A stretch of DNA of 64,000 nt, taken from Diprion similis (Eukaryota > Arthropoda > Insecta > Hymenoptera > Diprionidae). Every line of letters starts with the position of its first letter. The first letter of the stretch is position 1. Below the pieces are notes generated by a model that had not been told where the DNA came from, ran no database searches, and saw nothing but the letters and a program-made list of their open reading frames with translations. Made by a program: the position numbers and the translations under genes. Shown here piece by piece: positions 2,218-64,000 of the stretch. Location of the stretch: positions 10,354,001 to 10,418,000 of the forward strand of contig NC_060112.1 of the NCBI RefSeq assembly GCF_021155765.1. The letters are read 5' to 3'.

Positions 2218-4574
2218 CTAATACGTCGCTGGACAATTCTTTTGGTCCGTTCTGAGGAAATACGCTCTGCTTATCTTGTTTTTGTCGATTGTTCGGTACG
2301 CCTCTTCCAAAACTGCGACTGACGGGTTCCGTTCCCTCGTCAAAACCCAAGAATAGCGGACACTACAAGAAATAAAATGAAGACATGATTTTTGTTACAA
2401 ATTGAAACCGTTCGATCAAGTGATTTAAATTGATTGAAGGAAATTTATCGACCCATAATTACCTGAAGACACCGAAATTCGTGCAACTCCATACGACAGC
2501 CCAATTATCGTAGTCCGTGTCGACGATCCAATATGGCGCGTCTATTCCAACCGGAAGTGACGGAAACACGACTGACAATTTTGCGTCATCTGCCCTGCCG
2601 ATGAGTCTGCCTATACCGTCGAGACTGGAGGCAACTCCGGTTCTGGATAAGAATAATTCGAGGGGCCATTTACACGAAGATATCATAGACTTAAGACTTG
2701 GAAATTGAATTGTAAATTAAAGGAAATCGAATGACTGCAATATTTTTTGAAAGAAACGAGAAATCACTGCGGATACTTGAAATTATATGATATCGATGAA
2801 GAAACTTCGCAGCAAGTGTTAGAAATCGCGGGAATTGTTCTAAGGAATTCAAAGAATTTCTAATGATTTCTAATGATATCGAGTGAATGGTTGTGAGAAC
2901 TCCCATGGTCTTATCCTGTCTGGAAATCACTGATAATCGCCAAGAACGATCGGAAATCATTCGAAATCAGGGGCAATATTGGTAATTAATAGAAACTCCA
3001 CGATGAGATAGAAATCGGTAACTTTTGTTGCATTCCGCGAAATAAGCGTTGTTGCAAAAATTTAAATACAGCTACGTAATGGAGGCATTGAAGATTGAGA
3101 TGCATGCCTTTACTTACTGCAAAAATTACTGGATGTTGTATTGATAAGATTTGCTAGAACATCAACTTTTAATTTATGTTATCAATCGAAGAATTAAATA
3201 GAGAAGTTGTGAACTTCTGTGTTCTTCACTTACGTGTGCTTCACGTGAAAAGTGCACTAATGCTTTGAATTTCTATTCATTCTACAACGAAGGTGCAACA
3301 TCTTTTCAAATAAAATGATGAAAATTCTTATAGAAATTTCAAATCTGTTAGCAATATAGTCAAACTATATAAGAACGCAAGAGCGTTTTTAGAAACCTAT
3401 CACTTAGAACAACGCCAAAGGCTGACGATGAGTGTTTTCTCAAACATACATAATGTAGATAATTTCCTACATTAGCAATCCAGAAACACTTTCTCCCATA
3501 TGGGTAGGTATATGCGCATTATACTCACATGGATGATATCTGACTGTTTCGGATCTTGATGGATCCATTTTCACTCAGTGCGTAGTTAGCTGTCACGCAT
3601 TTACCACCGAATTGAAATAGGGCGAAGTACTTTTCAGCTTCGTACCATTTTCCCATGTACTGAAACAGGAACAAAGTTTATTAATCCCGCCATCCCACTG
3701 TTTATTGTTTGAATTATCGTTGCGAGTTCTTCCACTATTATTTCCAATGAAGTAAATTTCGGTAAATTTGAAGTCCATTTGGTTCATGTTAGAAAGAACC
3801 AAAGATTCCTTTGAATTTATAAGTAACGGTGGCTTCTAGCGTCATAATGAGCACATAATCGTTAATGGATTGGCAAAATAGTATTATTACAACACTTCAT
3901 CGGATTACGCCGATACCGTCACCGTTGCGCATTATGCCTCTTTTTCATAACCTGATTCCCGTACAACGATTAAACCTGTCAAGCTTAACAGTCCATAGTC
4001 GTTCCATCTAAAAACTTAAAGCCCCTAGGGCAATGGAAAATCATTCAAGGCCTGCAGTTCCACGGCAAATTGCACATTGTAAGAACGCTGATCATAATGG
4101 AAGAAACAAACAACGTAATAAATATTATAACGATGCCCAAGTTTTATTCGAGAAGTTTTTTCGACCTCCGTCAAGTTTTTGGGAGAATTCCCATGATATT
4201 CTACAAGCGAAACTTACACGTCATTCAGGCGTTTGGAACGCTGCATCGATGCGGAATTTAACAGTAAATACACAATATGCGGTCATTCGGTAATGCGATG
4301 CTCGGTTGTGAATTCAGTACAACTTTCTAAAAGCTAAAAGTACCGCACCGTGTAGAGTGTATAATAACGCATGTATTTACAGATTTTCTCGCCTCAAATT
4401 CGTACCATCAAATTACAGAGGGAATCACAAGTCGGTAATTGAAATTTTCAGAAAACATCTTACCCTCGCAGCATCAAATCCTGGTACAGTCTCAACGGCT
4501 GGACAAACACCCAGAAATGGAACCTGCGCCAAGGAACCACCGACAAAGAACAAGACCAGAGTAATCCACAGCAT
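2218..4574 (-). CDS. Apolipoprotein D-like lipocalin (gene A), 4 coding exons, 188 aa
   Basis: Secreted lipocalin, expected to carry a small hydrophobic ligand (bilin, lipid or pheromone-like) in an eight-stranded barrel. Coding exons on the minus strand are 4464-4574, 3529-3659, 2463-2642 and 2218-2362; every junction is GT-AG and the 567-nt total is in frame. Exon 1 gives a signal peptide starting MLWITLVLFF and cut near GGSLAQ. Exon 2 carries the hallmark GKWYEAEKYF. Exon 3 has DTDYDNWAVVWSC. Exon 4 has WVLTRERNPS and RTDQKNC before a TAG stop. Four cysteines (GVC, GKC, WSC, KNC) match the two conserved disulphides of apoD-type lipocalins. Length is normal for the family. The start is the only in-frame ATG next to the signal peptide; a TTCCAG acceptor about 10 nt upstream suggests a separate 5'UTR exon. 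Ligand is unknown. Paralogue of genes B and D. Confidence 0.92.
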
Positions 4575-9689: not shown

Positions 9690-11901
9690 AGGATCATAAT
9701 TGAATAGGAAAAAATGTTGAGCATGTAATCAAAAATAGCTGTAAACTAATTTGAAGTTGAAGATTTCGGAACTGCGATTCCACGCAGAACAAAATATTAG
9801 TCATCTTAGCTATTTGACTCACTATCCAGGGCCTAGAATTTTCAAGTGTGTATAGAAGTGTTTAAGAATGTTTACTATTTGACTACTACAAACTATTGAA
9901 CCATGAGCAGTAATGTATGTATACGAGTTAATGGTTAAACGAAGGAGGTGAATTTCGAGAATTTTTATTTCGATAACCGTTCATTTGAATTGTTTTTTCT
10001 TATATGCTGAATCCGATTTTCTTCGATATATTCAAGAATCTTCGCATGGAAATTTACAAACTCAAACTGTTCTGGTGACATGGTTTGCGTTGATCACTAT
10101 CTATATCTCGCGACAGTCTCGACGGATTTACTTCGATTGTAGGGTCAATGTATCTGTACACTTTATCCCTTTGACCTAAATCCATAATATATTTTTATAA
10201 TGATAACTGTTTTTTGCTTGCCTAAAGAAGAACGGATACGTGGACAAAAGAACGAGCTTAAATTTTGACCAGCCAGCATCTTATAAGAACCATTTATCCT
10301 CCTAACCGGGTTCGAGGAAAAAAGTAAAGCATTAAAAAATATCAGACCGAAAATCGATCGAAACGTTCTCGACTTACCGAGATTTTTCTGTGAAACTTAC
10401 CGCTCAACGCCAGCAAAAGAACAGCGAAACCAACGTTGTCTATTGCTCAGCCCTGTGTGAACCTGAGCCGTCGATCTCGAACAGGCTCGATCGAAAATAG
10501 TTAAATGATAAACGAAAATATGAATACAATAGTGAGTCATTGATATGCGTCCAGTATTTTAATTGCTTCCTGCACAACGACAATAAATCAAATTGTTGAA
10601 TTGATAACAATATCATTCTCTATATAGTAAAGATTGAACGTTTGAGCTCCTTATCAGTTGAAAATGAAATTTTACGGTAATCAAAGTGAATAATATGTCC
10701 GTCATGAATTTTGAGATGCAGATAGAATAGACGTGAAGATGATGCATACTTCACGCTTTCTATTTTCTTCAAGCCCTTGATTCTTACCTAATGCAGCCAC
10801 TATTCATTTATTGATGTGAATCTTTCCTTGCGTTATCGGAGCTTTGAAGTCTTTTCGCCTCGGCTGGTACGGCAAATTAACGATTTTCCATTCGTAGACA
10901 TTGTCCACGTTTGTAGATCAATTTCCTTCTCCGTAGTCGGCTGAGCAGGATCCTTCGCAGACTACACTCGTTGATTGTTCAGTGGGTAAAACAGATTCGA
11001 AGATAAGATCCTCGGTCGATCTTTTCACGGCTACCGACTCACTCGCTCGCGTTTGAGTGAACAGTGCACGAATCCAGCGCCAAATTATCAGACTTTACAT
11101 CTTCGTATAGCGTTCAATTTCGTTGATAAGTTTTCAGAAGAAAAATTACTGAAATCCGTGTTTCGATAATTAAAATTGTGATGACGTAATTTATGTTTGT
11201 TATATCACGATTTATTAATGGATAGAGGAAACAAATTCGTAATTTTGACAAACTCCGAGCTGTGAAAATCATCACGTGAAACAGTTGTAGAGGAATCCGT
11301 GATTCGAAACGTGGGTATATGGAGTGATCAAAGTCCATCACTGTATGTGTAAGAATGTCTTTATTGTGGCCACACATTGCCAATTAAAAGTGCTCCCCTG
11401 TCAGTGATATCAGATTTGCATAGTTGAAACAAGCCATTAAAACAAAAAAGTGCAAGTAAGACCAAGTAAGATAACTGAGTAGTTATCCTCACAGTCTCGT
11501 TAACACGATCCTCGTGACCAGCACGAATGTAAGGATTACTACTGCAATCGGGGTATTTTCACGATAATCATCCTGTTATCACGACTCACGATTTGCTAAT
11601 TTCATCAACACTTCAAACCTCCTTCAGATTCAGGCGTGTAGTTGAAATGGAAACTTTCTCTACAGAATAATTTGGTATTGTTTGACATTAAACGTTGTCA
11701 CTTGTCATTGTTCAAAAAGCCTTGAGGTGTGTTAAATCACACCACATCCACTTCAGAATGTATCGCGCGCATACTTTTTCCTCGCAATCATTGATATCCA
11801 AATTATGATTTAGAAAAATGATTCTATCTATTTCCCAAGGTTCTTGTACCTCAAATATTATCCCCCAGCATATCATACTTGAATTTGCAGACGAGACTTA
11901 C

Positions 11902-12379
11902 TCAGCGCCGGACTTACCTATAGGCCCGAGAAGCCCGGGCCTAGAGCGGCATTTTCTAGGAGCGCCAAAAATGGGCGCTGGAAATTTAATAAACCAAAAA
12001 ACTGTAGGTCTTGTACCAAAGTCATATAAACTGAGGAAGAGATACAAGCACAGCTTTGCGTTAATTGTTACGGCCGTCTTCAATATGTATTTCAAATTTG
12101 ATCGAGTCTCAAAAAATTATTTAAAAGGAATTATACTGAGAATACGTTTACCATCAACACTGTTTATGAAGAACATTTTTTCAAACGGCATTTATGCTGT
12201 CCGTAAAAATCCCCTCGGGAATCTTATTACATTTTCATTTCTGTTGAATTTTTGTAATCTTAACTTACCGAAGACGCCACAAAATTCGTCATCTTGATCA
12301 CCGTAGGACAGCTGTCCCAAGCTATCAGCTCAGCGAGTGAGCCACTTACGAAAAGGAACGGTAACGTGAACCATAGCAT
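11902..12379 (-). pseudogene. Decayed mirror copy of lipocalin B
   Basis: Inverted paralogue of gene B. Exon 1 (12269-12379) is intact: 37 codons with a signal peptide starting MLWFTLPFLF, the conserved Cys in DSCPTV, and a GTAAGT donor. At exon 2 (12030 down to 11902) the acceptor is kept, but the Gly codon of the G-x-W-Y motif is TGA. After about 30 nt the homology stops and an unrelated block of near-equal length follows, up to the old donor position. Exons 3 and 4 are missing: sequence homologous to intron 2 joins directly to the region after the stop codon, near 11575. A functional barrel is impossible; a short secreted peptide from exon 1 cannot be excluded but has no support. Confidence 0.88.
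11903..12000. mobile_element. Foreign block inside pseudogene exon 2, possibly a transposon terminus
   Basis: This GC-rich stretch has no counterpart in exon 2 of gene B. It contains CGCCGGACTTACC and GGCCCGAGAAGCCCGGGCC, the second being a palindrome. It resembles degraded ends of cut-and-paste DNA transposons, but I cannot name a family. It could also be a conversion patch from elsewhere. Confidence 0.3.
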
Positions 12380-12468
12380 TTTCAGGAGTGATTGCAAATT
12401 ATTTGCAGACCTCCAGGAAATCTTCGAAAGAATTACAAAACACAAGCAACACTGCCGGAGATGGACTT

Positions 12469-12510
12469 GACTGACAAGTTTTGGACTGACTCTTCTTCAT
12501 CATATATATG
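12469..12510 (-). promoter_or_regulatory. TATA/initiator copy upstream of the pseudogene
   Basis: CATATATATG (12510 to 12501, minus strand) is followed by two TCAGTC initiator-like motifs (12489-12484 and 12474-12469). The second lies at the same distance from the TATA element (about 37 nt) as in the intact right-arm gene. The promoter therefore survived although the coding part decayed. Confidence 0.4.
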
Positions 12511-12873
12511 TTCGCAGCATAAAAATTCGTACGAGGCCATGAAAAATAGATATAACTGGTTATCGTTTTTGGCTCGTAATAACTTTGGACACGGATGCGA
12601 ATAATTGCACCAACGTGCGCTCTTATCGTCACAAAAGATTTGAAGAAAATCGTGAAATGCGCTGCACTTACGATCAGAAACCCGAACATGTGTTATCAAA
12701 TGGCACGTGAAACACTACCCGAAGAATATAAAAATACGTGGGGGCAATCAGGATCGTCCGAGGAATGCAGTATATGATAATTAGCACAGAATGCGAAATA
12801 ATCAAAAATCAAACGAACTTACCTGTATGTGAAGTTCGATTGGAATTATATGAGAGTCTCGCTCCAGATGATT

Positions 12874-13032
12874 AAAACCCACCCATAATTTCCAGCCCAG
12901 TTCTCACGTTATTCTTTATTTTATCAATTAGTTCTAGATTATGAAAGACTGCAAGATAGCGGTGATCGTTTTTCACGGTTATTCTGTGTGAATATGTGAC
13001 TCAAACGGCGGGAAGTAGCGTTACTATCATTG
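12874..13032. other. Unique spacer at the centre of the inverted duplication
   Basis: About 160 bp between the two arms with no mirror symmetry I can see. On each side, immediately outside it, the arms carry a mirrored CAG|GTAAGT donor-like motif (near 13084 on plus and 12823 on minus). That may be a shared upstream 5'UTR exon or chance. Confidence 0.5.
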
Positions 13033-13401
13033 TAATCATCTGGAACGAGACTCTCATTTAATTCCAATCGAACTTCACACACAGGTAAGTTCGTTTGATT
13101 TTTGATTATTTCGCATTCTGTGCGAATTATCATATACTGCATTCCTCGGACGATCCTGATTGGCCCCACGTATTCTTATATTCTTCGTGTAGTGTTTGCC
13201 GTGTCATTTGATAACACATGTTCAGATTCGTGATCGTAAGTGCAGCGCATTTCACGATTCTCGAAAGATTTTGTGTAACGATAAGAGCGCACGTTGGTGC
13301 AATTATTCGCATTCGTGTTCAAAGTTATTACGAGCCAAAAACGATAACCAGTTATATCTATTTTTCGTGGCCACGTACGTATTTTTATGCTGCAAATGTA
13401 G

Positions 13402-13442
13402 TATATATATGATGAAGAGAAGCAGTCAAAAACTTGTCAGTT
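13402..13442 (+). promoter_or_regulatory. Putative TATA + initiator promoter of lipocalin B
   Basis: TATATATAT at 13402-13410 is followed by TCAGTT at 13437-13442, an arthropod initiator match. Transcription from about 13439 would give a 5'UTR of roughly 93 nt with no need for an extra intron. The same pair occurs in mirror image before the pseudogene. The spacing (about 35-37 nt) is slightly longer than the usual 31. Confidence 0.45.
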
Positions 13443-13531
13443 AAGTCCATCACCGGCGGCGTTGCTTATATTTTGAAATTTTTTCGAAGATTTCCTCGAG
13501 GTCTGCAAATAATTTGTAATCATTCCTGAAA

Positions 13532-15137
13532 ATGCTGTGGTTCACGTTACCGTTGCTTTTCGTAAGTGGCTCACTCGCTCGGCTGGTAGGTTGGGGCAAC
13601 TGTCCTACGGTGATCAAGATGACGGATTTTGCGCCGTCTTCGGTAAGTTAAGATTACAAAAATTCAACGGAAACGAAAATGTAATAAAATTCCAGAGATG
13701 ATTTTTACGGATAGCATAAATGCCGTTTGAAAAAATATTCTTCATAAACAGTGTTGATGGAAAATGTATTCTCAGTGTAATTCCTTTTAAATAATTTTTT
13801 AAGAGTCGATCAAATTTGAAATACATACTGAAGACGGCCGTAACAATTAACGCAAAGATGTGCTTGTATCTCTTCCTCAGTTTATAGGATCTTGGTACGA
13901 GGCCTACAGATCCTCATCCATCTTTGAAGCAGGTGGATCATGTGTCACTGCAAAATATACGCTGAACGATAACGGCACAATCACAGTCTTGAACACCGCA
14001 AAATTAGCTGAGTAAGTCTTGTCTGCAAATTCAAGTATTATATGCTGGGGGATAATATTTGAGGTACAAGAACCTTGGGAAATAGATAGAATCATTTTTC
14101 TAAATCATAATTTGGATATCAATGATTGCGAGGAAAAAGTATGCGCGCGATACATTCTGAAGTGGATGTGGTGTGATTTAACACACCTCAAGGCTTTTTG
14201 AACAATGACAAGTGACAACGTTCAATGTCAAACAATACCAAATTATTCTGTAGAGAAAGTTTCCATTTGAACTACACGCCTGAATCTAAAGGAGGTTTGA
14301 AGTGTTGATGAAATTAGCAAATCGTAGTTCATATTTTGAAACTAGATGTTTGTGCTTGGTTTCTAGAAGTATTGCTTCGACAGCTCTTTTTTCTCATCCA
14401 AATTACCGATCTCTTGATTGCCATTTTTATCTATTTCCTGAAAGAAAAAAAAAATAATAATAATGACAATAACATGATGGAAGTATTTTACCAGACAAGG
14501 AATAACCGTTGCAATCGAAGGTATAGCTACGGTCGTAGGTGACTCGGCAAATGGCTTGCTGTCCGTCAAATTTTCTTCGTCACCAACTGCCGCGCCATAC
14601 CAGGTCCTCGGTGTCAAATACGGGCATTGGGCCGTCGTGTGCTCCTGTACGAAGATTGGCTTGATCAAGTAAGTACTGGTTCTTAATCATCAACACGGTT
14701 ATCTTTAATATGATGTCAGAATTTCCATGTACTGTAAGAACAATACGATGTTGACGTCTGCATGCTCAAAATTGGCGATAATCTAACACTATCGAATGCT
14801 GAGTTACGAATTGAACACGAAAATTGCTCTGTAGTGTAGTTCAGGTCAGCCAATTTTGGTCAATTTTGCTACAACATTTTTTCTACAGTCTATAGTCACA
14901 ACTAACAAGAAACAAAGTATGTAGAAGCAAAACTTTGATTGCTCTTCGTAAGACAAATATTAACGTGTCTTAATTTTGCTTAACCACCTTTTCAGCTTCC
15001 AATTTACTTGGATCTTGACACGAGAACGGAACCCTTCACAATCAGTATTGGACGAGGCATTTGCGGTCTGTGAAGCCAACTCTTTGAGTACTACAGACTT
15101 GCTTCCAACGGACCAATCGAACTGCGCGATAGCGTGA
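13532..15137 (+). CDS. Apolipoprotein D-like lipocalin (gene B), 4 coding exons, 185 aa
   Basis: Secreted lipocalin. Coding exons are 13532-13642, 13881-14011, 14495-14668 and 14996-15137; all introns are GT-AG and the sum of 558 nt is in frame, ending in TGA. The signal peptide starts MLWFTLPLLF and ends near GSLAR. The family motif reads GSWYEAYRSS; later blocks are GHWAVVCSC and WILTRERNPS. Exon phases equal those of gene A, which makes them direct paralogues. It departs from the family in three ways: extra cysteines (VVCSC and AVCEAN), loss of the conserved R/K-T-D-Q block (here LPTDQSNC), and an acidic/serine-rich C-terminal stretch. An altered disulphide pattern is likely. It lies in the right palindrome arm. 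Ligand unknown. Confidence 0.9.
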
Positions 15138-15348
15138 TCAGGCTGATTATCGTGAAAATACCCCGATTGCAGTGGTAATCCTTACATTTGTACTGATCAC
15201 GAGGATCGTGTTAACGAGACTGTGAGGATAACTACTCAGTTATCTTACTTGGTCTTACTTGCACTTTTTTGTTTTAATGGCTTGTTTCAACTATGCAAAT
15301 CTGATATCACTGACAGGGGAGCACTTTTAATTGGCAATGTGTGGCCAC

Positions 15349-17050: not shown

Positions 17051-18996
17051 TCCGGCATGCAGCTATCACGTGATTCTTTCCTTATTTTTCGCGATTGCCA
17101 ATTGGCCCAGCAGGACACGTGCTTCATGCACGACCCTGTACGCAATCTAGGTATTGGAGCTTTTCGAGTTTCATGCACTTTTTCGTTAGAAACATGCGGT
17201 CAGAAAAAAAGGGACATAGCAAATTTTAATGCCTATCATTTGAATGTGAACTCGCGTGGATTGCAAATTTTCTTGTCAAACCCATTCCGGGATCATCCCG
17301 GGAGTTTATCAGAACAGACAAACTGAAATTCTTCTAGAAACCTGTTTTTTCGATACAACAGGTCCATAAAGTTTGGAGTTTATCGAAATTGGAAAACGTT
17401 ATTTCGGACCGAAACCAACACTTTTCCTGCATCTCCTTAGGGGGTGATAAGTAAAAATTCCATATCTGTATAAAGCACCCATATTTTCGAATTCTAAAAT
17501 ATTCTTCGTGTAAAATTTCACCTACACGTTGTTCTTTCGTGATTACATCCTTGGAAGTGAAGATGATAATTCGTGAATCAGAGAAGTCGAATGTTTGCAC
17601 TGATTTTTGAATTACAAATTATTACGAAGGCTTTTTGGATGCAAGGAATGACAGATGGAGCTGTAATACGCGAAACAATAAATTAGTTACCTGTTACTCT
17701 CCACATTTGCGGAACAGTAGTTTCGGAAATCTTCCAAGTAAGTTGACGCGTAATGCCACCATACATAAAGATTCTATTATCTCGAAAAGGTCCATTTTGA
17801 CAACTGGTGAGTCTGTGTACAATTAATAAAGGACCCGATTGAGAGTAAGCCGGCTTACGGAACACCCGCCAAGTTGCGCTCATCCGCACTCGTTCACTGC
17901 CGAAACTTATCTGCCAAAATCCACGTGCTCGCGGTTATCAAGTCGTCAAGCGACACCCGCCTGCCCTCTGGTTTTGAGGGTTGAAACTGGAGACTAATCT
18001 CGGGGCACCACGCGATGAAGGCGCGAACAATCATCATGATTACGAATTAGTTGAACAACTTGATTGATTCGTTGCAATCAAATACTTCGTGCTCAAACCG
18101 TTAGCCGTATTAACTGCAAAAGCTTCATCCAATACCGATTTATTCAATAGATATGGAAGCTGGAAAGAGCAAGGAATCAAAAACGGTGCAACGTATTGAA
18201 ATTAACTAACGGTCTCATAGGAAAAAATCTTCGCTATATCGATAAACATTGATACGAAGTACCATCGTGCGATTTAGTCAAATTATAAGGCAATGTATTT
18301 ACGAATTTCGAATTGTGGGAAACGACAATTTTTTGCAGTCGCTGGATGAAGTTCGGAAAATCGACGAGAATCCTGCGTAGACATATACGTACACCAGATT
18401 CACACTCGCTTTAAGGTTACAGTTATGAGCTACTGGTATCTGAACCCCTTGTTTTCATTACTCTTAAAGCCATTGTCGAAACTTTTCTCAATTAACACAC
18501 AAGCAGAATATCGAACACTATCATCTATGTATTTTCAATTTGAAACGGTTTCTTCATACTTGTAAGCAAAAAAATTATGAATCTTGATCAGCTGAAACTC
18601 ACTAATGTATAAGTACCATACCTACGTAGAAAAAAACACATTGTTCAAAACTCTTAAATTTCTGCAGTAACCTTAACGTACAAAGTAGTCCCATTAAAGT
18701 ACTCACAAGTGAGTATGTAGGTATACTTGTATAGGATAAAATGTAGGGATAGAAGAATTGTCTGTTGTCTGCTCTCCATAAACCTTTTTCACTCGAAGCT
18801 TTTCAGCAATATTTCTCAGGTAAATTTTTACGTAACACTTTATTCTTTTTTCTTGAATCATCTTTCCATTATGAACGTACAATTTATTTTAATTATATTG
18901 TATTTTTGTTTGTTTTGTTTTTCTCGCTCTAACCATCAAATCTTTCACACATATACGTACGGAATTTTTGCATCATTAGATAAATACAAACCTAAC
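17051..18996. other. Intergenic between palindrome and lipocalin D
   Basis: No coding exon recognised. Moderate AT content; open frames at 17018-17326 and 18727-19002 show no domain, signal peptide or splice support. Confidence 0.5.
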
Positions 18997-19014: not shown

Positions 19015-19105
19015 TGGCACTTGTGCGGCGAGACTGGCCGGAATCGAACTCCAAACTGTTGTCCAAAGCCGAAAACCAGCCGCTACGAGCCACGTGGAAT
19101 TATCG
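19015..19105 (-). repeat. tRNA-like sequence, possible SINE head
   Basis: On the minus strand TGGCTCGTAGCGG resembles a Pol III A box, and GAGTTCGATTCC about 35 nt later is a near-perfect B box. The arms do not fold into a complete tRNA cloverleaf and I cannot assign an anticodon, so a tRNA-derived SINE or a decayed tRNA is more likely than a working tRNA gene. It lies just past the stop codon of gene D, in its presumed 3'UTR or flank. Confidence 0.3.
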
Positions 19106-19184
19106 TCAGCCTTTCGGGATGAGCCTAAAGTCTTGTGGTGTACCAGATTCGGTGGCTTATTCGGGGTATCGAGCTGCGCCAACT

Positions 19185-22100
19185 TCAAGGCTTCGGTTCC
19201 ACGATCTTCGCCGGCTCGGCGACTACCTTCGGCTTCGGTTCTTCAACAGCGACTTCTGGGTTCTTCACCTGAATCTGAGGGGCAAGCGGAGTTTCCGGCA
19301 CTGCCGATTCTGCAGCTGGTAACTCGGGCTTAACGGCCTCTTCAAGCGGCGCGGGCTTCTCAGCAGCTTCCGGTGCGGCCATCGGAACCTCGGCGAGCTT
19401 TTCCTTCTTCGCAGGTTCGGGCAGTGCAGATTTTGGCGGCAAGGCTGCGGCTTCCTGTAGCGGAACGGCGGCGACCGGAGTCTCGATCTTTTCCTGTTTG
19501 ATCGCCGTAGCTTCCGGAACTGGTTCTGCTAAATTTAGAACAGGAATCATCGCCGCTGGTTTTTCCTTCGGTTCTTCAAGCGCGACTGGTTCCTCCGGTT
19601 TGACAGTTTCCGCCGGTTCAGCGTCCTTCAGCACAGCTTCCGATTGCGGTTCGGCAACGACGTCCAACTTTACTTTCTCCGGTTCAGCACTCACGACGAC
19701 CTCGTGGACCTTCGACTCCTCGGCGATCGGCGCTGCTTCCGGCTGTGGATCTGCGGCTGGTTTCGCGGTCTCAGCGACCTTCAGAATAACTTCTGGGACC
19801 GTTTCCGGTGCGACAGGTTTCGGCGATGCTTCTTTAGCTGGTTCCACACTAGCAGGTTGCACTTCTTCCGCCAGTTTCTCCGCTGCTGGACTTGATTCGA
19901 CGGCGATTTCTTCCTTTGGCATTTCCATCGCTGGCTCAGCCTCTTGCAGAAGTCCGCTCGACCTCAAGAGCACCCCCTTTTCAAGCCCGGGTTCCGGCAC
20001 TACGGTTTCCTCCTTGATCGGGGTAGCGGGTGCAGCTGGAGCCACGGCAGGAATTGGAGCTGCAGCTGGAGCCACGGCTGGAATTGGAGCAGCGACTGGA
20101 GCTGGAGCTGCAGCAGCTGGAGTGGGCGCCAGATCGAAGGCACACTCAGCCTGGTCTGTCTTCACGAAGAATCTCCTTGATAGACCGTGTTTGTCCAAAG
20201 CGCCATAGGCCTAGACAGTCAATTTTACGGTGGAGACAAAGCCATAAATTTTTGGAAAGATACATGTAGGAGAATTCCAGAAAGCAAAAAAAAAAACATG
20301 ATTGAAATGATGATCAATCTCAGTGAATTGATGAGAAGTCACAGACATCGCTTCTTTAAATCATCATTTACCCAAGCAATTTTGGAATTTTGATTTAATT
20401 TAGATATTAATGTTTATTCTACGAATTTTTATTTCGTACACTTGATTTAATTTATTGATAGTCAACATCATCAAATCGTGTGCAATCGAAATTTCTTTAA
20501 AGTGACTGAACACCTTCACTGAACATGATGCCCAAATTCTAGTAATGATCGAAAATTTTGATCATTTTAGTTCCACTGAAAAGAAGTTGATATTAAAGTT
20601 TCATGAAATTTAACTAAAATCTTATTGTGACACAGTTGATGAAGCTTTTTCCCCTACAAGAATACTCTCGATGATAAATAAATTTCATAACTTCAACACT
20701 CGAATCCAAATTGGAAAGATTTTTGCATTGATTTCATCATATACGCCTACGTTTGCTATGATTTTTTAATTTCCTTTCAAACTGACGAAATTACGAGATC
20801 AAACGTGCTTCACCGGTGATGAAGTACGGTGTCAAACTGATTGTGAAACATGCATTACGCCTATTACTGTTTCAAATTACCATCTGCATAGTTGCCGAAG
20901 ACGGGTTACGGTTTCGGGTCATCACCCAAGCGCTCTGAGTGTGGGCGAGTCCGATGCTCTGGCAATTCCAGAGGAGTGCATAATTTTCGTAGTCGGTCTC
21001 CAGTACCGTGTACTGGGTCTCAGGAGTCAAAGGAACAGTCGTGTATTTCACGTTGATTCGTCCTTCCTCAGCCTTTGTTGGTGAGGGTTTAACCTCACCC
21101 TCCAGGACGCGTTTTATTCCAGTCCTACGGCCGTTCAGTTGAGTTAGAAATTGGAAATCACCGTCAGAAATTAAATATTCAAATCCACTTACAGTCGGTT
21201 GGTAACCTCGTTGCTGACGCGCACTTTTCCGTCGAATCCTTTGGTATAGTTTGAAACGACACATCGCGAGACGAGTTCGGTTAGTTGAAAGTACCTTTCG
21301 GCTTCGTACCAAACACCCAAGAACTAAAGAAAAAAGGTAACATTTAAAGAGAATAAATGATCAATGATTTCTTTTTCAATTGTTACTCGAGTACTTTTTT
21401 TTTAACAATTGTCTTGCACCAGAGCAAAGCAGTACGACTTTATTCACATCCGTCCTGACAGGTGTTCAATAGTGACGACGCTCTGATATAACTGTTTTCA
21501 ACTTTCGAGCACGGTTCGTCGGTCGCGTATATTCGGTCTCAGAATTCTTAAACCGGTTGACAAGAATTTGATTGATTTGAATTAATTTAATTTCAAATTT
21601 TGAATATTTCATACAAATGTGACGCGAAAAGATTCAAACGTTCGTCGCGTCTGGTTAGGAATCTGCATCAATTTGAATATTACATGCGGCGATAATTCCT
21701 CTCTAAATTTATTATAACTTTATATAATCAAGTTTATGTACAGTTATTTTCATTGATAGGTTTCCAGTGACTCATTATTTTTTTGGAATCGAAGCTGAAA
21801 AGAGTTTTTTTCATATAAAAATTGGAAGAATACGGAAAACAAAAATAATGGAATAACAGAGCATAGATACCGAGGCTTCATTTAAAATCGATGCAAATAA
21901 TTGATTCGAGGATCTCGTATTGTCAAATTGAATATTCAACGATGCCGAAACGATGAAGAAGAAGTGTTTCAGTGAGTTTGTAGAATATCGTCTTCCGAAT
22001 ATAACGAACCATCACAGAGTAAAATCAAACGAATCCAATAAATTTTCAAGCATTTTGAGTTACTTTGAAACGAAGCATTACCATCTAACAAAAGCTCTAA

Positions 22101-22410
22101 CTTTCAACACCGGTATCTATTATTTTCATATTTTTAACCAGAATTTCGTAGTTTACGATTACAACACTTTGGTAAAACATATTCAATGTAGGATTATCTT
22201 GCAATAAAATTGCTAAAACGTTTCGGTTCTTGGCCAATAAGCCGGTTTGGCGATGAATAAAAATAAGGCGGAGGAATATTGTGCAGAAAGACTTACCTTG
22301 GGCAAGTTAAAGCCAGCCATGGGGACTTGATCGGGACACCATCCCAGGTTGGGGATTTGGGCCTTAGCCAAAGCTAAGGCCGCGAATACGAGAACAATCT
22401 TCTTCAGCAT
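19185..22410 (-). CDS. Apolipoprotein D-like lipocalin with long PEVK-like tail (gene D), 504 aa
   Basis: Coding exons on the minus strand are 22297-22410, 21193-21323, 20881-21124 and 19185-20210; all introns are GT-AG and the 1515-nt sum is in frame. Residues 1-17 are a signal peptide (MLKKIVLVFAALALAKA). The barrel runs to about residue 189, with GVWYEAERYF, TGIKRVLEGEVKP, DYENYALLWNC, WVMTRNRNPS and FVKTDQAEC, plus the four usual cysteines. The last exon then continues without a stop for 315 residues. This tail is built of Pro, Glu, Ala, Val and Lys, has no Cys, Phe, Trp or Tyr, and includes a duplicated APIPAVAPAA unit. Lipocalins normally end near residue 190. The tail is probably disordered and extended, giving a tethering, spacer or matrix role; its function is unknown. 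Intron 3 is placed differently from genes A and B, so D is the more distant paralogue. Confidence 0.9.
20038..20097 (-). repeat. 30-bp tandem duplication in the gene D tail
   Basis: Two adjacent near-identical 30-bp units encode the repeated APIPAVAPAA peptide at the start of the tail. Local slippage of this kind is a likely way for the tail to grow. Confidence 0.7.
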
Positions 22411-22447: not shown

Positions 22448-22456
22448 CTTTATATA
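22448..22456 (-). promoter_or_regulatory. TATA box of lipocalin D
   Basis: TATATAAAG on the minus strand, about 38-46 nt upstream of the start codon. It predicts a very short 5'UTR (about 15 nt). No clear TCAGT initiator is seen at the expected position. Confidence 0.5.
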
Positions 22457-42118: not shown

Positions 42119-45100
42119 TTAGTCGGCTAGGTTTTTACTAAGCAGTAAGTCGTTGTGCGGCCCCGACAAGTGCCTGATGAGCTCCTGCAAGCTCTCGAAG
42201 CTCGAATTGCAGAAGCAGCAGGAAAACGTGTTGTCGGGGGCGGCGATGACGCCTCTGTGAACTGAGCAGAGGTGCTTGAGGAGGTGGGCCTTCTGCTTGA
42301 ACATCGCAACGCACAAGCGGCAGGCGAACGGTTTTTCCCCCGTGTGAACCCGCAAGTGCGTTTTCAGATTCCACGACATGCCGAACTGCTTCCCGCAGTA
42401 CGAACAACGATATTCGCGGACGGGGGTCGATTTTGGGGGGTCGTCCGAAGGCGGAGGCGGCGGGGCCCGACTCGGGGGCAGCGTCCACGCCCCCCACTGT
42501 GTTTCCAGGCCCCCTACTGCTACCGGATCCGCGCTTGGTGGCCTGTGCGACGCTCCTGGCGGCGTCACCGGTCTGTCCTGTTGAAAGGAAAAAGGGTTAT
42601 TAGGGGTTGACCCGTTCAGTTAGCTGGGGAAAATAGTTAGGAGTCAACTTCAATTTCTTTTCATGCGGCATGTGTCGAGAGACTGACGATTTTCTAAATT
42701 CAGTGTATCGTTCCGAGGTGGATTTGAAGTGATTCAAGGCCAACAGTATCGTCTGTTGTGCCGGTTAAATTGATGCGTTGACGGAAGAATTTACACACGG
42801 TTACCCCTAGGTAATTTATCGTTACAACTGGGCCCGGCTCCATACAAGGCCGTATTAGGGATCCGGTACCTTCTTTATCGGCTGGAAATTTCAACTGGCT
42901 GCACTGAGTGCGTCTTCTCTACGATTTCGCCATTGCTATTGGTTGAAAACTGGGGAGATCGCACTGAGTGCAGTCAGTTGAAAACGCTATGACAGTTTTC
43001 ATTCAATATAGATCGCAGCGATCGACACCGGTGGCCTTGAAATGGGCAGAATTCCCCGCGTGAGGTGTACACCAGTCATGGAATGATTTGAAATCTCTGA
43101 AATTGCAGTTTGTTCGAAGTTCTGAAAAAAGTGCAGACTTTTCCGCATATATCTGTGTTCAGATAGATAGACTCTCTCCTTGAAATGCATTCTAATTTGC
43201 AGATAAGAAAGTGATTTTGTATACAATGAGAATGCAATTACATGTATTATATACCAAAATGCAAGTCAAAGAAAAGTTGCTCTCAGCATAAAGGATCCGC
43301 ATGTAGATTCTCGGGCACAGGGATAAAGGAGATATTGACTTACTAGGTAAGGCGGGGCTGATATGCTGTGGGGATGAGGCGCCTGCAGCCTCCGGGGCGT
43401 TTCAAATCCAGGATTGAAGGGAACAAAGGCCGGGTTCTGGGCAGGGGCGTTGTGAAACCCTGGCCTTCTCTTTCTGTGAGGCGTTACTACATACGCTTCC
43501 GCCGGGGGAAGTGGCAGCTCTTCCGGTTTCCGTTTGCCCGGCTCCAGGCCGAGCGCCAAACGAGCCTGGAGCTGCCTTCTCCGCTCCTCGACTTCCTCCA
43601 ACGACTCCCGTCGCTCCAGCAGCGGCTTTTCTGGCCTGGGAAAGTAAGAAATATCTCAGGAATACGAAAGAGTCAACGTTCTCGAATATTTCGAATGAAG
43701 TATTATTTGCTGATATTATTTAATAAAACAACAGAACGTTATAACGTCATCTGAATAGTTTCAAAAAGTTCAGGATTCGTTCTGTAATGCTTATCCTTAA
43801 TTGAAAAATATGCGAACGGGAGATTGTTTACAAAATCCTTAATAGATCCTATGTTATTTCATCAACGTTCAAAGTTCCCGCCCTTCTCTGCCGGTAATAC
43901 AGTTTCGAAAATCACTAGCACGAGCGGTATAGCAGTTCATTTTCCTGTTTTGTCGACGGATTTACGTGCGCAGCATAATCGACTATTGATGAGCGAACGC
44001 TGAGTAGATTGTCGCATTTCGAGTCAAACGCGAGTCACAATTTCGTAACTTAATACTTATTAACTTGTTTCATACTTCTGCTGAAACACCGTCACTATTT
44101 CAAGTCCAAGTTTAGTGCCGCCTATGTGTATTTCACCATTTAGCCGGAAGGTGGTAATTAATACGATCATCGACCTCCTCAAGGCTTTTCCTTTTGCGAC
44201 GTATCGGGCGGCGATTAACGCCCGCTAACGATTCCCCGTGCTCAGATACCGCAACGCATCACGACCCGAATACATGAATCTGCATGTCCAATTTGATGAT
44301 CCGAAGCAAGTTGCAATTAGGAGCATAGTGTATGTATGTGTGTGTTGTTGATACTACCGGTTATCGCCGATAGGTTAAAATACTGCATCACGCCTTCACG
44401 TGTAACTTGTATTAACCAAGTCTGACAGCATTATGAAGGACAAGATTGATTTGAAAACTTTTTTCAACTAGGTGATGCTATAACGTCTGACTTTAGCAAC
44501 CTCTTAATTTAACCATACATTTTCCGAAAAATTGGACTTCACAATCCAAGCAATGATTTGTAAAAAAAATTACCGATGTGATCTCGAAATTAACAGACTT
44601 TCGGAAATCATCCATAATACTTTCTAATTTCATCTACAAGTACAGGAAAAAAATCCTTCTAATTTCTTCGAAGCGAGAAACGGTTAAAAAATGGACGGAA
44701 ATTACAAACAATAAATAAATGACCGTATAATGAAAACGATATACTCTGATCTTGCCGTTCTTCAACAAGAACAAACAATACACGCAAACCTTTGAGACGC
44801 CTTACCTGTGAACGACGTCGTGTGACCCTTCGCTGGTTGTAGAAGCGCCGGAATTTAAACATAGGTTAACCGGATCGGAGCTGTCCCTCCTCCGGGGAGG
44901 TTCGAGACTCCCTTCTCTATTGTCGCTTAAATGGTGGTGGGTCTCCCCTTCGACGCCCTCGACGTCGACTTCCGTTTCGTCTTCACATCCCTCGGTTTTT
45001 ATGAGAACCGAACAGCAGTCGGCCGGATTATTAGACTGCCTACTGTTAAACATTCACAAACACCAAGCTGGTTAGAAGGGCACGACATAATTTGTTCAAT

Positions 45101-47155
45101 AAAAATGACCTTCACATAATATTGTGTTTCCAGAATTATGAGACTTTTGATGGGTATAGAATTACGCATAAAATAAAATTTGTAGCATTCGTTTGGATGG
45201 AAAATTTATTGCTGAGCAGTAAGTTGAATGAAATTTTGAGAGCACAATTAGCCAACTATTAAAAACGAAGGCAACAAGTATAATATACAAATCTCCTACG
45301 GCTATTTCAGACACACAAGACAAATAGAAATGTACGAAATCCATTTAATTAATAAGACCATTGAAAACTTGTTGGCATTTTTGTGACGAGCCCTCAAAAA
45401 ATTCGCAAACCTGTTAGTTGAATTCATATTCGGGTCTTCCCCTTCAGCAGAGCAAAGAGCGAACTGCCTTATCGACGACAAATGAAAGCAGCTGGGCAAC
45501 AGCCGGTAACTAACCTGCCGTCGTACTGTGACTCATAACTCGAGCTCTCCTGACTTTCCGAAGGCTGGGGCGTCGGTATCCTCTCCTGATCAGACTTGCT
45601 CGAAGTCTGCGGATGGTTCGACTCGGAGAGCTCCGACTTTATCTGGAGCAGCTCGAACAGTTCCCGTAGCGGTATCAGCTCGGAAGACTGGCGACGGCGG
45701 GGAAAAAAGATAACGTTCAACTTACGATGAAAACGGATGAGCGGAAGAGTCGGAGTTGAATATGGCAATGGAAATATTTCTTAAAGTTCAATGGAACGCC
45801 ATTTGAAAAGTGTCAAAAAGTAGTCAAAAAGAAAAAATGTCTCGATATATATGGTAAATTTATCAATGTTTTTTTTTTCATGCCTTTGTTCGCGGGAATG
45901 TCAAATATTGAAAATGTAAGCTTGATTGAACACTTAAGATACCGTGATTACTGTTTTATAACAATAAATCTCTGAGGAATAAATTAAATCCTGTTATTTA
46001 TATTTTGAGAGTACAAAGACATGGTTGAATTATGGTAGATCCAGAATCGTTCAGTTTGTGGCCATATCCGTAACACTCAGATGAAGGCTTGGTCACAGAT
46101 AATACAAAGAAATTACGGACGGCTTTGATCAATGTTAAAATTTGACTTTCTAACAGCTGAATGCTAAAGAGTTCTGGTCATTATTCACAGCGTAGGAAAT
46201 TTTTTTGTGATTAATTCAATAATTGAATAGATTTGTATAGTGCCAGAAGCAATAGAAATAAAACACAAACGACGCCTCTTATATCCTACGGTTAAATATT
46301 TCACTGATATGTTGGTTTATAACGAGGGGCTATCCGCTCAAAAATACGTAAACTTGACACTGGGAAATCAAATTGTAAATTCAAGGACCTTGTAAGACCG
46401 AAATTTTCTTTGAATTAACGACGAATCAATCGAGATTACTGAAATGATTAAAAATCGTAGCAGATAAGTTGAAATGAGGAATCGCGTGGCAAGGGTTGAA
46501 AATTACGAAAATTGTTTTAATCAATTCATTAGCATTCCATTGATATCTATCTCATCGTATGATTTCGTTGACTTTCAGTTCACCAAGTTATTTCCATAAA
46601 TTTTTCTAGTTAATTTCCTGTGATTCTATCCAAGCCCAGAGCTTTGAGAATGATTGAAGATCACTTGGTACGTCGGAGATTAATAAAACTGAGATAATAA
46701 CGTAGAAATCAGACAAAATGACTGCCGATGAATTGGAATCATTGATTTAGTGATCAAGTGGATAGCGCCCCGGGTTATTACCGAACTTATTTTCGGTAGA
46801 TCCTGATCGATCGAAAGTGCATTCCAACTGCACATGGGTATAGTTGCATCAATTTGACATAGCTCACCGGTATCAAGGCTTCTCCGTTGTACAGGAACTC
46901 GAGGAGGTAATTAAGCTGGGGCTTCCTGACCCCGGACAGGTGGACGACGTGGTCCAGGGCGGGGTCCCGGAGGAGGTCCGCCAGGAGCGGACTCGCAGCG
47001 GCGAGAACAACGCGGTGAGCTCGGATCACCGAGCCGTCGTCGCAGGCCAGGGCGACGTCCACGTGCTGGTCCCCGCTGTACCAAGCGCCGACTTCCGCGG
47101 CCAAGGTTGCGGGGTGTTTCCCGTAGTGGAGGGTCAGCAGACCGTCCGTATACAT
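42119..47155 (-). CDS. ken: Ken (ken and barbie) BTB/C2H2 zinc-finger transcriptional repressor, 5 coding exons, 481 aa
   Basis: Nuclear DNA-binding repressor. In Drosophila, Ken is a BCL6-like factor that dampens a subset of JAK/STAT targets and is needed for genital development. Coding exons on the minus strand are 46868-47155, 45515-45687, 44806-45039, 43344-43635 and 42119-42577; all introns are GT-AG and the 1446 nt are in frame. Residues 1 to about 110 form the BTB/POZ dimerisation domain (starts [14 protein letters not shown]; core [14 protein letters not shown]). The middle is a disordered Ser/Pro/Glu-rich linker including [16 protein letters not shown]. The C-terminus has three C2H2 fingers: [19 protein letters not shown], then [19 protein letters not shown], then [19 protein letters not shown]. 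The finger order, linkers and terminal LLLSKNLAD match my memory of insect Ken. The ATG follows a CCACAG acceptor at 47158, so an upstream 5'UTR exon exists. Confidence 0.87.
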
Positions 47156-47339
47156 CGTCTGTGGAGGAAAGAGGAAACGAAACCGATTGTTAGAAGGCGA
47201 ACAACTCTCTCGATAACGCGAAGACGGTCGTTAAATCCGCGGATTGCTTAACGACCGGACCGAATTATTATGTAAAATCGACATCCAGCGTGGTTCATAT
47301 TCGTGTTAGTTTCTCACTTAATGCTCATTGCCGGGGTGC

Positions 47340-58600: not shown

Positions 58601-61600
58601 AGAGACGAACGTTCCCTTTCCAAGGATGCGGCGGCGTTCGAGGTTTGACGAATCGGATTATCGCAAGAAATTCATTCCTCTTGGGGCACGGCCCGGTTTT
58701 TATTTTATTCCGTTCAGGCCCCGCGTTTCACAACAGAACTCGGGAATCGGTTCGAGTCGGACGGCCGGTTTACGTAACGGCATCCTCCCATTGGCGACTG
58801 TGAAATTACGTCGGCGGGAGCCGCATGCGTGCAGCAGTCCATCAGTAGAGAGAGCTCGAATCGTTTCGGCCGAAACTTACACTGTGTGGGCACTCACTCG
58901 CTCTCTCACTCTTTCGCTCTCTCGCAGCGCAACGTAACAGGAGCGCGCTAGATCGTTAGAATCGGCCGAAGGCCGGCTAAATTACAAGAGTCTTCAATGT
59001 CACGAGTCCCGCCTCCCCCTCCGTCTCTCTCCGTTTCGATCCCCGTTTCCACCTCTCCACCGCCGTCAAAGACGACCACGACAACGACGACGACGACGTG
59101 GATGAGGAGCACTCTCCGCTGGTCTCACCTCCGCTTTCCTCCACTCGTCATCCGCTTCTTCTCGCCCATTCTCCACGTGATCAGCGCAGCGCGGATTTCA
59201 CAGCCGGCGCAGCGCAATCGGTGCTCTCGGGCTGACCTTGACTGCGCCGCCACATCGATCGCCATACAGACGTCGATCGCCGATCGGCGGACACACTCGA
59301 CGGCGAAACCACGGAGGAATTTCAATTTCACGGAGCGATCGAGGATCGAGACGCTTTCCGATCGGCCGGCCTCGCGGTGCAAGGTCGGATTTCGTGTGCT
59401 TGCTTTTCCAATAGCAGCGAGAACACAGCTAATTCTCTCTATAATCTCGCGTTTCGTTCACCTTGAAGCGGCGCTTACGATATACCTATTTGTACACGCA
59501 ACGAAACGGCGAGAAGTATCAACCCGCAGCAACGCTCTGCAGGCGCATTTCTCGATTGTGACATTTTGGGCATGGACACGCGGCCGCGAGGCTGCCTGCC
59601 GAAAACCAAGGTGTGGAAACCCGGTGCATAAACGTTGACGAAAATTGCTTCAGGTATCGACACCACGGCCCATACCGTGCCGTCGGTTCGAAAGTCTTTC
59701 AGGCTTCGGCTTCGCGTCGATCAACCATGCCGCGCACGAATTCAGCGCTGCGCGCACGTTCGAACCAGCGACGATAGGCCCCGATAGACGAAAGTGAAAG
59801 GGAGGGTGGAAAGGGTCCGACCAGCGTTGGGCCCCGGCGGTTCACAACCTCCGGATCGTTCGCGCTTTCCTGCCTACCTAGAATCGACTCAAGCTTTCGC
59901 ACGGCTCCTTGTGTATCACTGATAAATTATATGCGAGTAATTAGAAGACTCCAGTGCCAAGCCTCCTCAAGGCCTCGGCTTCGCCGAAGCGTACTTCCGG
60001 TTCCGATCGACTTCCTCTTTTCTCATCGCGAACGCTTCGCGAGGCTGGATCGAGGCGCAGGCGCCACCGCGTCAATATTTCTACTCCAAGGGCTCCGACC
60101 AATTACCTTCGATTCGAGTTTCCCGCTCCTCGGGGCGGCCTGATCAGCTGATCATCGTCCGCGTTTTGGCGCGAACGCGAGGAAAAATGTGCGCGCAATT
60201 GTGCGTCGACCGCGCGGCGGTAAATTTAGGCGTCAACTGCCACTCCTTACATACGAATGAACCCGCTTCTCTCCCTCCGTCCCTCTCCATCTTGGAAAGA
60301 TTCTCTTATCAACACAAGCTCCGACTCTGCACGGCTTCGGTGACAGTAGCGCAAACGATTTACACTCAGGCGCTTCGGACGTGCAAACGCAAAAACTCGA
60401 CGTTGGTATATTATGCTGGAATTCCCGGAAGATATTTGTCGTTCTTTTTTTGATTTTATACTTTGCTTGTTTTAGCCAGAAATAGACACGGTGACGTGTT
60501 AATTACGTTGCAAATCTTGTTGGTAGGTATACCAGCCTTGGGCAAACATATAAAGACTGTGCGATAGTGAAAAACGTGCGAGATCAATCACCGCGTGGTG
60601 TGTCTTAGTCAAATTTTTGTTTACCTTTCAGTAGTATCCTATATCCAATCCAAAGTGTGCACCCGCAGGCGGGTTTTACGTTTCTCTCGATGAGTAGGGA
60701 TACATCTCTGAATGTCGATCGTCAAATCTTCTTCCGTGTAATCCAAATTGGCAAATATAAGAACAACACGTATACGATTATATAATATTAGGCACGGTTA
60801 ACTGACAAACATTTGAAATTCACTAGATATTCTTTTATTCTTTACTTTCCTCTCAATTTTACGTATTCGTCAACTTTTCAATTTATCTTTATTTATCTTT
60901 ACTTCGATCCACGATCGGTTTAGATTAGCCACTGTCACTTCACCAGGTTCACGTTCTTCTCCGCATAGTCACTGTGTATCCTTTATTTTCAGACTGACAC
61001 CAGTAACCGCGGCCAATCACGAGTGCCGAGAAGAAGATAAAAACAAACAAAAACAAAACCTATTTCAACACACCGTCGAATATCGATCGACTCGCTTTGT
61101 CACACTGTACAAATAATTTAGTCGAATTTAAAGAGGCACGCTGTTGTACTCAAGTTTCATCGAAGTTACTTCACTCGTTTCTCTTTCCGTCGTACGCCGA
61201 ACGCCAAACTATTCCTCTCCTCTCCTCACTTGCTGAAACTGTGATAACCGCACCATGGATTCATCACGAATGAACGCTGTTCACTCCTCGTCGTGTGCGG
61301 AAAATAGAACCTTACAATATCCTCTAATTCGCTGATGCGGCTTGCTAATGTTGCATGGGTGTCGCGTCAAGGTCAATCCGCCAGCTCGTGGTCTCGGCGT
61401 CACCTTATCACTCGCGAGGACCAGCGTACGCGCTTTTTTTCCGCTTATACAATCCCCGTGTGTGAAAGAACAACGTATGAGAGTTTGGTCGAGACGCGTA
61501 GCGTGAAATGGAGAATCACTCGCTACTCGCGTTCGAATTCCCCGCGCGAATAAGAAAGAAGATCGCGCCGCGAGGTCTCTCCTTTGGTAGGTACGAAATG

Positions 61601-62592
61601 ATGTCGTTGTCGGCTTGCCGCCTTCCTTCCTCCGCTTCTACTTTTTCCTCTCTTCTTTTCCTGCTCGCCTGGCTTCGCGCGAGTGTGTGCGTGTTTGTTG
61701 CGTTGTTGTTTTGTTGTTCCCCTCTGCTTTTTTCCTTTTCCCTCTTTTTCTTCTTCCTCTTCGGGCCTCCCAGCGGCTCCAGGGTCAGCCGGCTGGCTTA
61801 GCACTTTTACTCGCTCGTGTCCCAAGGACTTGCCGCGCTTCTATCCCTTTCTCTTATCCTTTCGCGCGCGCGCGCGCTCGCTCGCGCTTGTTTTTTATCC
61901 CTCTAACCTTTTTAGCGGACTTTTAATTCCAACCGTTGCCAGCGTTACTTATGATCACCGCTGCCCGCTTCAAGGTAAAGAAAAGGTAATATTATAGAAA
62001 GGCGTTTACATCACACAGCTATATTAATGTATCGATGAACGCATGTGTGTGCATACACATATATACATACACACTCCAATATCCAATATCTCCGCATGTA
62101 TGCACGTACAAAGTGTATTATACGTACACCTCGTTTTAAATGTCAGATAAATGTTGCCACTCTTTTTTTTCTTCCTTTCTTCTTCTCCTTTATCTTCACT
62201 TTTCGATCCTTGTTGCTTTTGTTTTTACTCTTATTCTTCTTGTTATTACTATTAAAAATATCGTTCAAGGATCGTCTGCTGCACTCGCGGTGCATTCAGA
62301 TGGCGAGATGCGTGTATTACGTTTCACGATTTAAATTCCTTATCGCGGTGATGTGTGGGAGTGTGCTTGCGTGCGTGTATCTGCGTGAGTGTGTTCGTAT
62401 ATTTTTCACTAAACCCCCCACCCCCCCTCCCACCCCCCTCTCGCGACAATTTTCGCCGGTCCTTTTTTCCGTTCTCCGCGAAACCTTTTCTCTTCGATGC
62501 TTCGTCAAAGTGCGCCAGACACAAGTTCTTGAATTCGATTCGACGCAGGTCCGAACGATCCGCGGTTGTTTCGCGCGCCGAAAGTAACAGCG

Positions 62593-62593
<1 letters not shown>

Positions 62594-62635
<42 letters not shown>
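62594..62635. repeat. (CT)n microsatellite
   Basis: About 21 uninterrupted CT units, a possible GAGA-factor-type site on the minus strand. Confidence 0.9.
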
Positions 62636-62639
<4 letters not shown>

Positions 62640-63713: not shown

Positions 63714-63813
63714 ACGCCGCCGCCGCCGCTGCTGCTGCCGTTGCTGATGGTGCTGGTGCTGGTGCTGGTGCTGGTGGTGCCGCTGCCGCTGCCGCTGCCG
63801 CTGCCGCTGCTCC
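63714..63813. repeat. CCG/CTG-type triplet repeat
   Basis: Imperfect GC-rich triplets (CGC, CTG, GTG, CCG). Translated as poly-Ala or poly-Arg/Leu depending on frame; I see no reason to call it coding. Confidence 0.8.
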
Positions 63814-64000
63814 GTCGAGTTTCAACTTTTACTTTCAGCTCTTACACAACACCGGACCGCCGCCGCCGCCGTGTCGTACCTCCGGTGTCGGTGTGCCTTT
63901 GTGTGCGTCGGTGAGTGAGCCCGTGCATTCGCACGGTTGCCCCGACTGCCGCGTGTCTCTCGTGAGCGTTTCGTTTCGGTGGCTTGAAGCCTCCTCCTCC

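Follow-up and report, generated by a model that had tools for sequence, protein, structure and literature searches.

An apolipoprotein-D-type lipocalin gene of Diprion similis with a 318-codon Ala/Pro/Glu-rich tail in its last exon

Does a lipocalin gene of Diprion similis read on, past its lipocalin domain, into a coding tail that exceeds the domain in size, and what could such a tail do? We analyzed this for a gene, here called gene D, on the minus strand of a stretch of 64,000 nucleotides (nt) of RefSeq assembly GCF_021155765.1 (contig NC_060112.1, positions 10,354,001 to 10,418,000 of the forward strand), referred to below as the window. Its four exons, joined at GT/AG sites, give a single protein of 504 residues. 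The exon 4 frame has 341 codons (20210 down to 19185) and ends with TGA; the first 23 codons complete the lipocalin domain and the others form the tail. We confirmed the 318-codon tail as a real feature of the sequence at the level of DNA and conceptual protein. Our preferred reading, to which we give a probability of roughly 0.45, is that gene D encodes a secreted apolipoprotein-D-type (ApoD-type) lipocalin whose unfolded acidic tail would act as a hydrated entropic spacer and would have grown by repeat expansion. The parts of the gene are as follows.

22449..22456, minus strand: likely TATA box TATATAAA, 38 nt from the start codon (seen by eye, position checked, role putative)
22297..22410, minus strand: exon 1 of the spliced model, with donor gtaagt; signal-peptide codons, then QIPNLGWCPDQVP including Cys 25
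21193..21323, minus strand: exon 2 (spliced model, paralogue alignment), with the lipocalin G-x-W block FLGVWYEAE and Cys 59
20881..21124, minus strand: exon 3, with lipocalin strands, the ETDYENYA block and Cys 136
20142..20210, minus strand: exon 4, closing part of the lipocalin domain, AYGALDKHGLSRRFFVKTDQAEC, with the final Cys 186
19188..20141, minus strand: exon 4 after C186, the Ala/Pro/Glu/Val/Lys-rich tail of 318 residues
20019..20141, minus strand: first 41 tail codons, a nearly uncharged Pro/Ala block holding a 30-nt tandem repeat; the charged part follows
19185..19187, minus strand: stop codon TGA
18839..18893, minus strand: candidate polyadenylation signals, ATTAAA at 18893-18888 and AATAAA at 18844-18839 (motif match only)

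The membership of gene D among the ApoD-type lipocalins is firm on the evidence of its predicted protein. The spliced barrel matched the Pfam families Lipocalin_2 (PF08212, 43.6 bits, cut-off 24, E 3.7e-11) and Lipocalin (PF00061, 37.9 bits, cut-off 23), and its best solved relative was human ApoD (2hzq, residues 21-186, E 4.1e-21, top of 20 distinct sequences). Two stretches named as lipocalin motifs, G-x-W and TDY, were found as G41-x-W43 and within ETDYENYA. Cysteines C25, C59, C136 and C186 are common to two lipocalin paralogues of the window, A and C, as the alignment shows; barrel identity is 35% to A and 31% to C. Human ApoD 2hzq, insecticyanin 1z24 and bilin-binding protein 1bbp have the same four cysteines and the same G-x-W and TDY blocks. 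The analysis upholds the lipocalin domain with four conserved cysteines that an earlier note on this DNA had described. The 20881/20210 junction is backed by homology, as the residues flanking it align without gaps to both paralogues. Codons 1-17 (22410-22360), MLKKIVLVFAALALAKA, look like a signal peptide, a judgement made by eye without a predictor.

Further, we determined the composition of the tail. It contains 68 Ala (21%), 58 Pro (18%), 53 Glu (17%), 36 Val (11%), 28 Lys (8.8%) and 20 Leu, while Ser makes up 3.5%. There is no Cys, Trp or Tyr, and Phe (at position 2), Arg and His occur once each; 8 of the Lys are directly followed by Pro. The tail opens with A-F-D, and the remaining 315 residues, from LAPTP onward, lack Cys, Phe, Trp and Tyr; the translation therefore bears out that 315 codons without cysteine or aromatic residues lie in the same exon as the end of the barrel. 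The net charge of the tail is -28, its isoelectric point (pI) is 4.5 compared with 8.4 for the mature barrel, and its mass is 32.7 kDa compared with 19.2 kDa.

We wanted to see whether such a frame would stay open by chance. When the 954-nt tail was shuffled with its dinucleotides preserved, the tail frame was open in 0 of 2000 cases (mean 8.9 stops). The sum of C, F, W, Y, G and R residues was 5, whereas 500 shuffles averaged 79 and never fell below 60. Among 71 other 954-nt segments of the window with G+C content (GC) of at least 0.50, which overlap one another and some of which may be real exons, the longest open frame had 228 codons and the median was 151. The GC of exon 4 was 0.58 versus 0.31 in the adjoining intron, with coding-like values of 0.77/0.47/0.52 at the three codon positions. 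Codon choice (GAA for 37 of 53 Glu, AAG for 19 of 28 Lys, p = 0.002) was suggestive only. The case for a coding tail is carried by its composition, its codon phase and its fusion to a homologous lipocalin exon.

The order of residues within the tail was also compared with shuffles. Pro-Pro pairs were avoided, with one pair where 10.4 were expected (0/2000 shuffles as low), and the avoidance held in codons 42-318 (1 versus 7.4; 5/2000 shuffles as low). Pro occurs once per 5.5 residues with a median gap of 3, and the longest Pro-free run is 18 residues; this density and spacing argue against long helices or a folded core in the predicted chain. Charge segregation was below that of every one of 500 shuffles. 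Over the whole tail, a charged residue directly before Pro was enriched (22 versus 15.7; 49/2000 shuffles), and one directly after Pro was not clearly so (19 versus 15.7; 341/2000 shuffles). Neighbouring opposite charges, pairs of the Glu-Glu, Lys-Lys and Ala-Ala types, the longest Pro-free run and hydrophobic triples in the tail did not differ from the shuffles. The TOP-IDP mean was 0.34 for the tail and 0.08 for the barrel. We call the tail disordered because of its Pro spacing and its TOP-IDP value.

At the DNA level, the tail holds 49 pairs of near-repeats (15/18 nt), whose spacing is always a multiple of three; 100 codon shuffles averaged 4.7 such pairs. As many as 37 of these pairs lie inside the first 41 codons, a number reached by 0/500 shuffles. 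Internal periodicity of the tail was unconvincing, the best lags having z of 2.6-3.0 among 59 tested.

We then compared the tail with known polymers. It had been likened to the PEVK region of titin, which is rich in Pro, Glu, Val and Lys, extensible and unfolded, contains PPAK motifs and is Lys-rich and basic. In the tail of gene D, in contrast, Ala is the commonest residue, Lys reaches 8.8%, the net charge is -28 and a pattern scan found no PPAK motif. Only lipocalin-type families matched in the barrel, and the flanking immunoglobulin domains and sarcomeric context of titin were not encountered. Since the tail is acidic (pI 4.5), PPAK-free and Lys-poor, the titin PEVK label fits poorly and we do not retain it.

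An Ala/Pro/Glu random-coil spacer seems by analogy to fit better, similar to the Pro/Ala/Ser (PAS) tails of protein engineering. One article on such tails describes them as random coils that raise hydrodynamic volume, and gives approximately 416 kDa by size exclusion for a PASylated Fab' and approximately 30 kDa for the Fab' (PMC7595094). Both are long Pro/Ala-rich chains fused to a compact domain. PAS tails, in contrast, are artificial and consist of Pro, Ala and Ser only, while the tail of gene D is acidic, with abundant Glu, Val and Lys and little Ser. That it is a natural counterpart of PAS tails, a selected acidic random-coil polymer that raises hydrodynamic size and residence time in a body fluid or secretion, is a conceivable but doubtful extension of the analogy.

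In the reading that we prefer, gene D would be expressed and its product secreted, with the tail unfolded. The barrel would most likely bind a small hydrophobic ligand, like its relatives, and the tail, by its likeness to PAS, would most likely be a hydrated entropic spacer. The nearly uncharged Pro/Ala block may serve as a PAS-like linker, and the evenly charged later stretch would enlarge the carrier, maintain its solubility and its distance from other molecules, and slow its loss from the fluid in which it works. Such a mechanism, the simplest one, would be physical: a hydrated chain that outweighs the barrel and adds bulk and solubility. Repeats that expanded in frame, on one lipocalin of a tandem cluster, are the probable source of the tail or at any rate of its first block.

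Several observations weigh against a selected, unfolded coding tail. The plus strand over the tail is also open, for 309 codons, which weakens the argument from the open frame. This antisense frame is a by-product of composition: when synonymous codons of the tail were permuted, it stayed open over the whole tail in 235 of 2000 permutations. Because biased composition opens frames so cheaply, the length of the frame says less by itself than the earlier note implied; the claim of that note that a frame kept open implies selection has moderate support only, the antisense frame being long too. The GC stays high, at 0.545, for approximately 165 nt past the stop codon of gene D (19020-19184), and therefore high GC does not by itself mark a coding tail. 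Three matches to donor-like patterns also lie in exon 4 (one of GTRAG type and two of [AC]AGGT[AG]). The gene might then end after the barrel, through a splice form that escaped notice or a fault of the assembly, and the tail would lie outside the main product. We consider this very improbable: a scan limited to exon 4 gave zero matches to an acceptor pattern (8 pyrimidines then YAG), no stop lies near the end of the lipocalin domain, and the codon-position composition is coding-like.

The remaining points of this kind concern the state and the origin of the tail. In the charge-hydropathy test, it fell on the folded side (H 0.482 versus a boundary of 0.445), and its acidic chain could fold back on the basic barrel. 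Beyond the first block, in codons 42-318, only 12 near-repeat pairs were found, a weak excess reached by 23/500 shuffles. The features of residue order suit an extended polymer, and repeat ancestry could produce the same features. The tail might then be a tolerated, nearly neutral repeat expansion, part of a real protein and without a selected function. Its presence as a single copy in the genome, its absence from paralogues A and C, and the Pro/Ala block with its 30-nt tandem repeat and strong near-repeat excess agree with this. The 318 codons are, on the other hand, free of stops, and Pro-Pro pairs are avoided in codons 42-318, where the repeat excess is weak. On balance, we regard neutral expansion as unlikely.

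We searched the tail for signs of attachment or processing. The pattern scan detected neither an N-glycosylation sequon nor an R-x-[KR]-R site, and there is one Lys-Lys pair. A hydrophobic C-terminal anchor signal is the mark of Lazarillo-type lipocalins that carry a glycosylphosphatidylinositol (GPI) anchor; none was seen by eye, gene D ending in AEPAKIVEPKP. Taken together, the single Phe, the lack of Cys, Trp and Tyr, of a sequon and of an R-x-[KR]-R site, and the non-hydrophobic end give no hint that the tail is cross-linked, N-glycosylated, released or GPI-anchored. One article mentions insect ApoD homologues anchored to membranes (PMC8530192).

The tail could instead be an anchor of another kind, which localises the carrier by multivalent weak contacts with matrix, cuticle, silk, mucus or a protein. 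Charged Pro-rich tails of low complexity can be multivalent binders, and the pI of tail and barrel differ widely. A tail with one Phe and without Trp, Tyr or Cys, however, offers little for stacking on sugars or for cross-links. Further, the tail alone matched nothing in PDB (E up to 0.01), Pfam or PHROGs, and the whole exon 4 frame had no match in Pfam or NCBIfam. We judge an anchoring role improbable, to about the same degree as neutral expansion.

Extensions of ApoD-type lipocalins are already in print. Lepidopteran ApoD2 is reported to have a "distinctive C-terminal extension" (PMC13373240, EMBO J 2026); it arose by tandem duplication, and Hymenoptera are said to retain ApoD2 (PMC13373240). 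A survey of 2021 mentions longer C-terminal lipocalin segments for which stop-codon errors were not excludable (PMC8214410). Both lepidopteran ApoD2 and gene D are ApoD-type lipocalins with a C-terminal extension, a likeness drawn from the text description of ApoD2. By analogy with what has been proposed for the ApoD2 C-terminal domain in Lepidoptera, the tail might alter how the barrel binds ligand or membranes, and a basic barrel and an acidic tail could interact. A relation between the two extensions is hypothetical, however, and a longest Pro-free run of 18 leaves little room for an amphipathic helix; modulation of this kind seems to us decidedly improbable. In an open-licence library that lacks most subscription papers, covered by titles and the openings of abstracts in searches several of which served other questions, no lipocalin with a Pro/Ala/Glu tail of such size was found.

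We also compared gene D with the other lipocalin genes detected.

2218..4574, minus strand: paralogue A, tailless lipocalin (exons 4574-4464, 3659-3529, 2642-2463, 2362-2218)
13532..15137, plus strand: paralogue C, tailless lipocalin (exons 13532-13642, 13881-14011, 14495-14668, 14996-15137)
Contig C6, 18180211-18183062 (L025 1712-4563): fourth lipocalin, ApoD-like (exons read, not joined)

Paralogue A ends in TDQKNCPATY, four residues beyond its last Cys, and paralogue C in TDQSNCAIA, three residues beyond it. The last intron of gene D follows NPSSATMQM; in A it lies approximately 20 codons earlier, before the VRYSWVLTRERNP block, and likewise in C (20881-21124, 2362-2642). Gene D therefore differs from its neighbours A and C in gene structure too, because its last intron sits elsewhere. 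The lipocalin on contig C6 has a TDYDNYA block and, past the last Cys of its final exon, an 87-residue extension, KAGEKIGDGVEWVASAGGKVYHKL with a polar end. This extension contains aromatic residues and Gly and is not Pro/Ala rich, unlike the tail of gene D. The C6 gene is a possible ApoD2 or ApoD3 orthologue. Extensions were thus present in two of the four lipocalin genes seen in the genome (D and the C6 gene). The statement that apoD lipocalins stop near residue 190 agrees with A and C and is contradicted by the C6 extension and by PMC13373240 and PMC8214410; the solved ApoD-related chains compared are 173-189 residues long, and gene D has 318 residues in addition.

The genome of D. similis (269 Mb, 60 contigs) was searched with two Pfam families, the barrel, the tail as DNA and as protein, paralogue A and part of the C6 lipocalin. 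The lipocalin exons found belong to A, C, D and the gene on C6; these searches run exon by exon and score the best candidates only, so lipocalin exons may be missed. Position 19255495 of C6 gave one more match, which on inspection looked like a fatty-acid-binding protein and was not counted. The tail occurs once, both as DNA and as protein. A repeat or transposon origin is not supported, as the tail DNA matched only itself in a search that skips simple repeats and very common words. Pattern scans of viral contigs gave 17 matches for the exon 3 frame and 13 for the exon 4 frame, and those of genome contigs gave 170 for the exon 4 frame; none was confirmed. As described, the collections consist of viral, bacterial and archaeal sequence and are uninformative on insects. 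The exon 3 query extended by a few residues into the intron on either side, which made one of its six patterns intronic.

Should the tail prove to be expressed and selected, the compact one-domain design of lipocalins would be able to take on a polymer-like tail that outsizes the domain, and gene D would offer a natural model for the effects of tails on solubility, residence time or lipid delivery. Taken with the extension reported for ApoD2, this would suggest that insect ApoD copies repeatedly specialise by way of C-terminal tails. The "longer C-terminal segments" that the 2021 survey leaves ambiguous against stop-codon errors (PMC8214410) would then deserve a second look.

Some other features of the window were noted. 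Downstream of gene D, the minus strand at 19020-19184 has a B-box-like AGTTCGATTCC and by eye resembles a tRNA. ARAGORN called no tRNA across the window, Rfam gave no family, and the DNA search of the genome that skips simple repeats and very common words matched only the segment itself. Around lipocalin C there is a large imperfect palindrome (11500-15214) with four inverted arm pairs of 492, 367, 319 and 76 nt that are 91-98% complementary, and its left arm carries a reversed copy of the first exon of C with flanks. In the region 58952-63911, where the GC is 0.50, both strands hold open frames of 131-228 codons; six of these were compared with Pfam, and none had a match. On the minus strand, a C2H2 zinc-finger exon (42122-42619) and a BTB/POZ exon (46790-47230) possibly belong to one BTB zinc-finger transcription factor gene.
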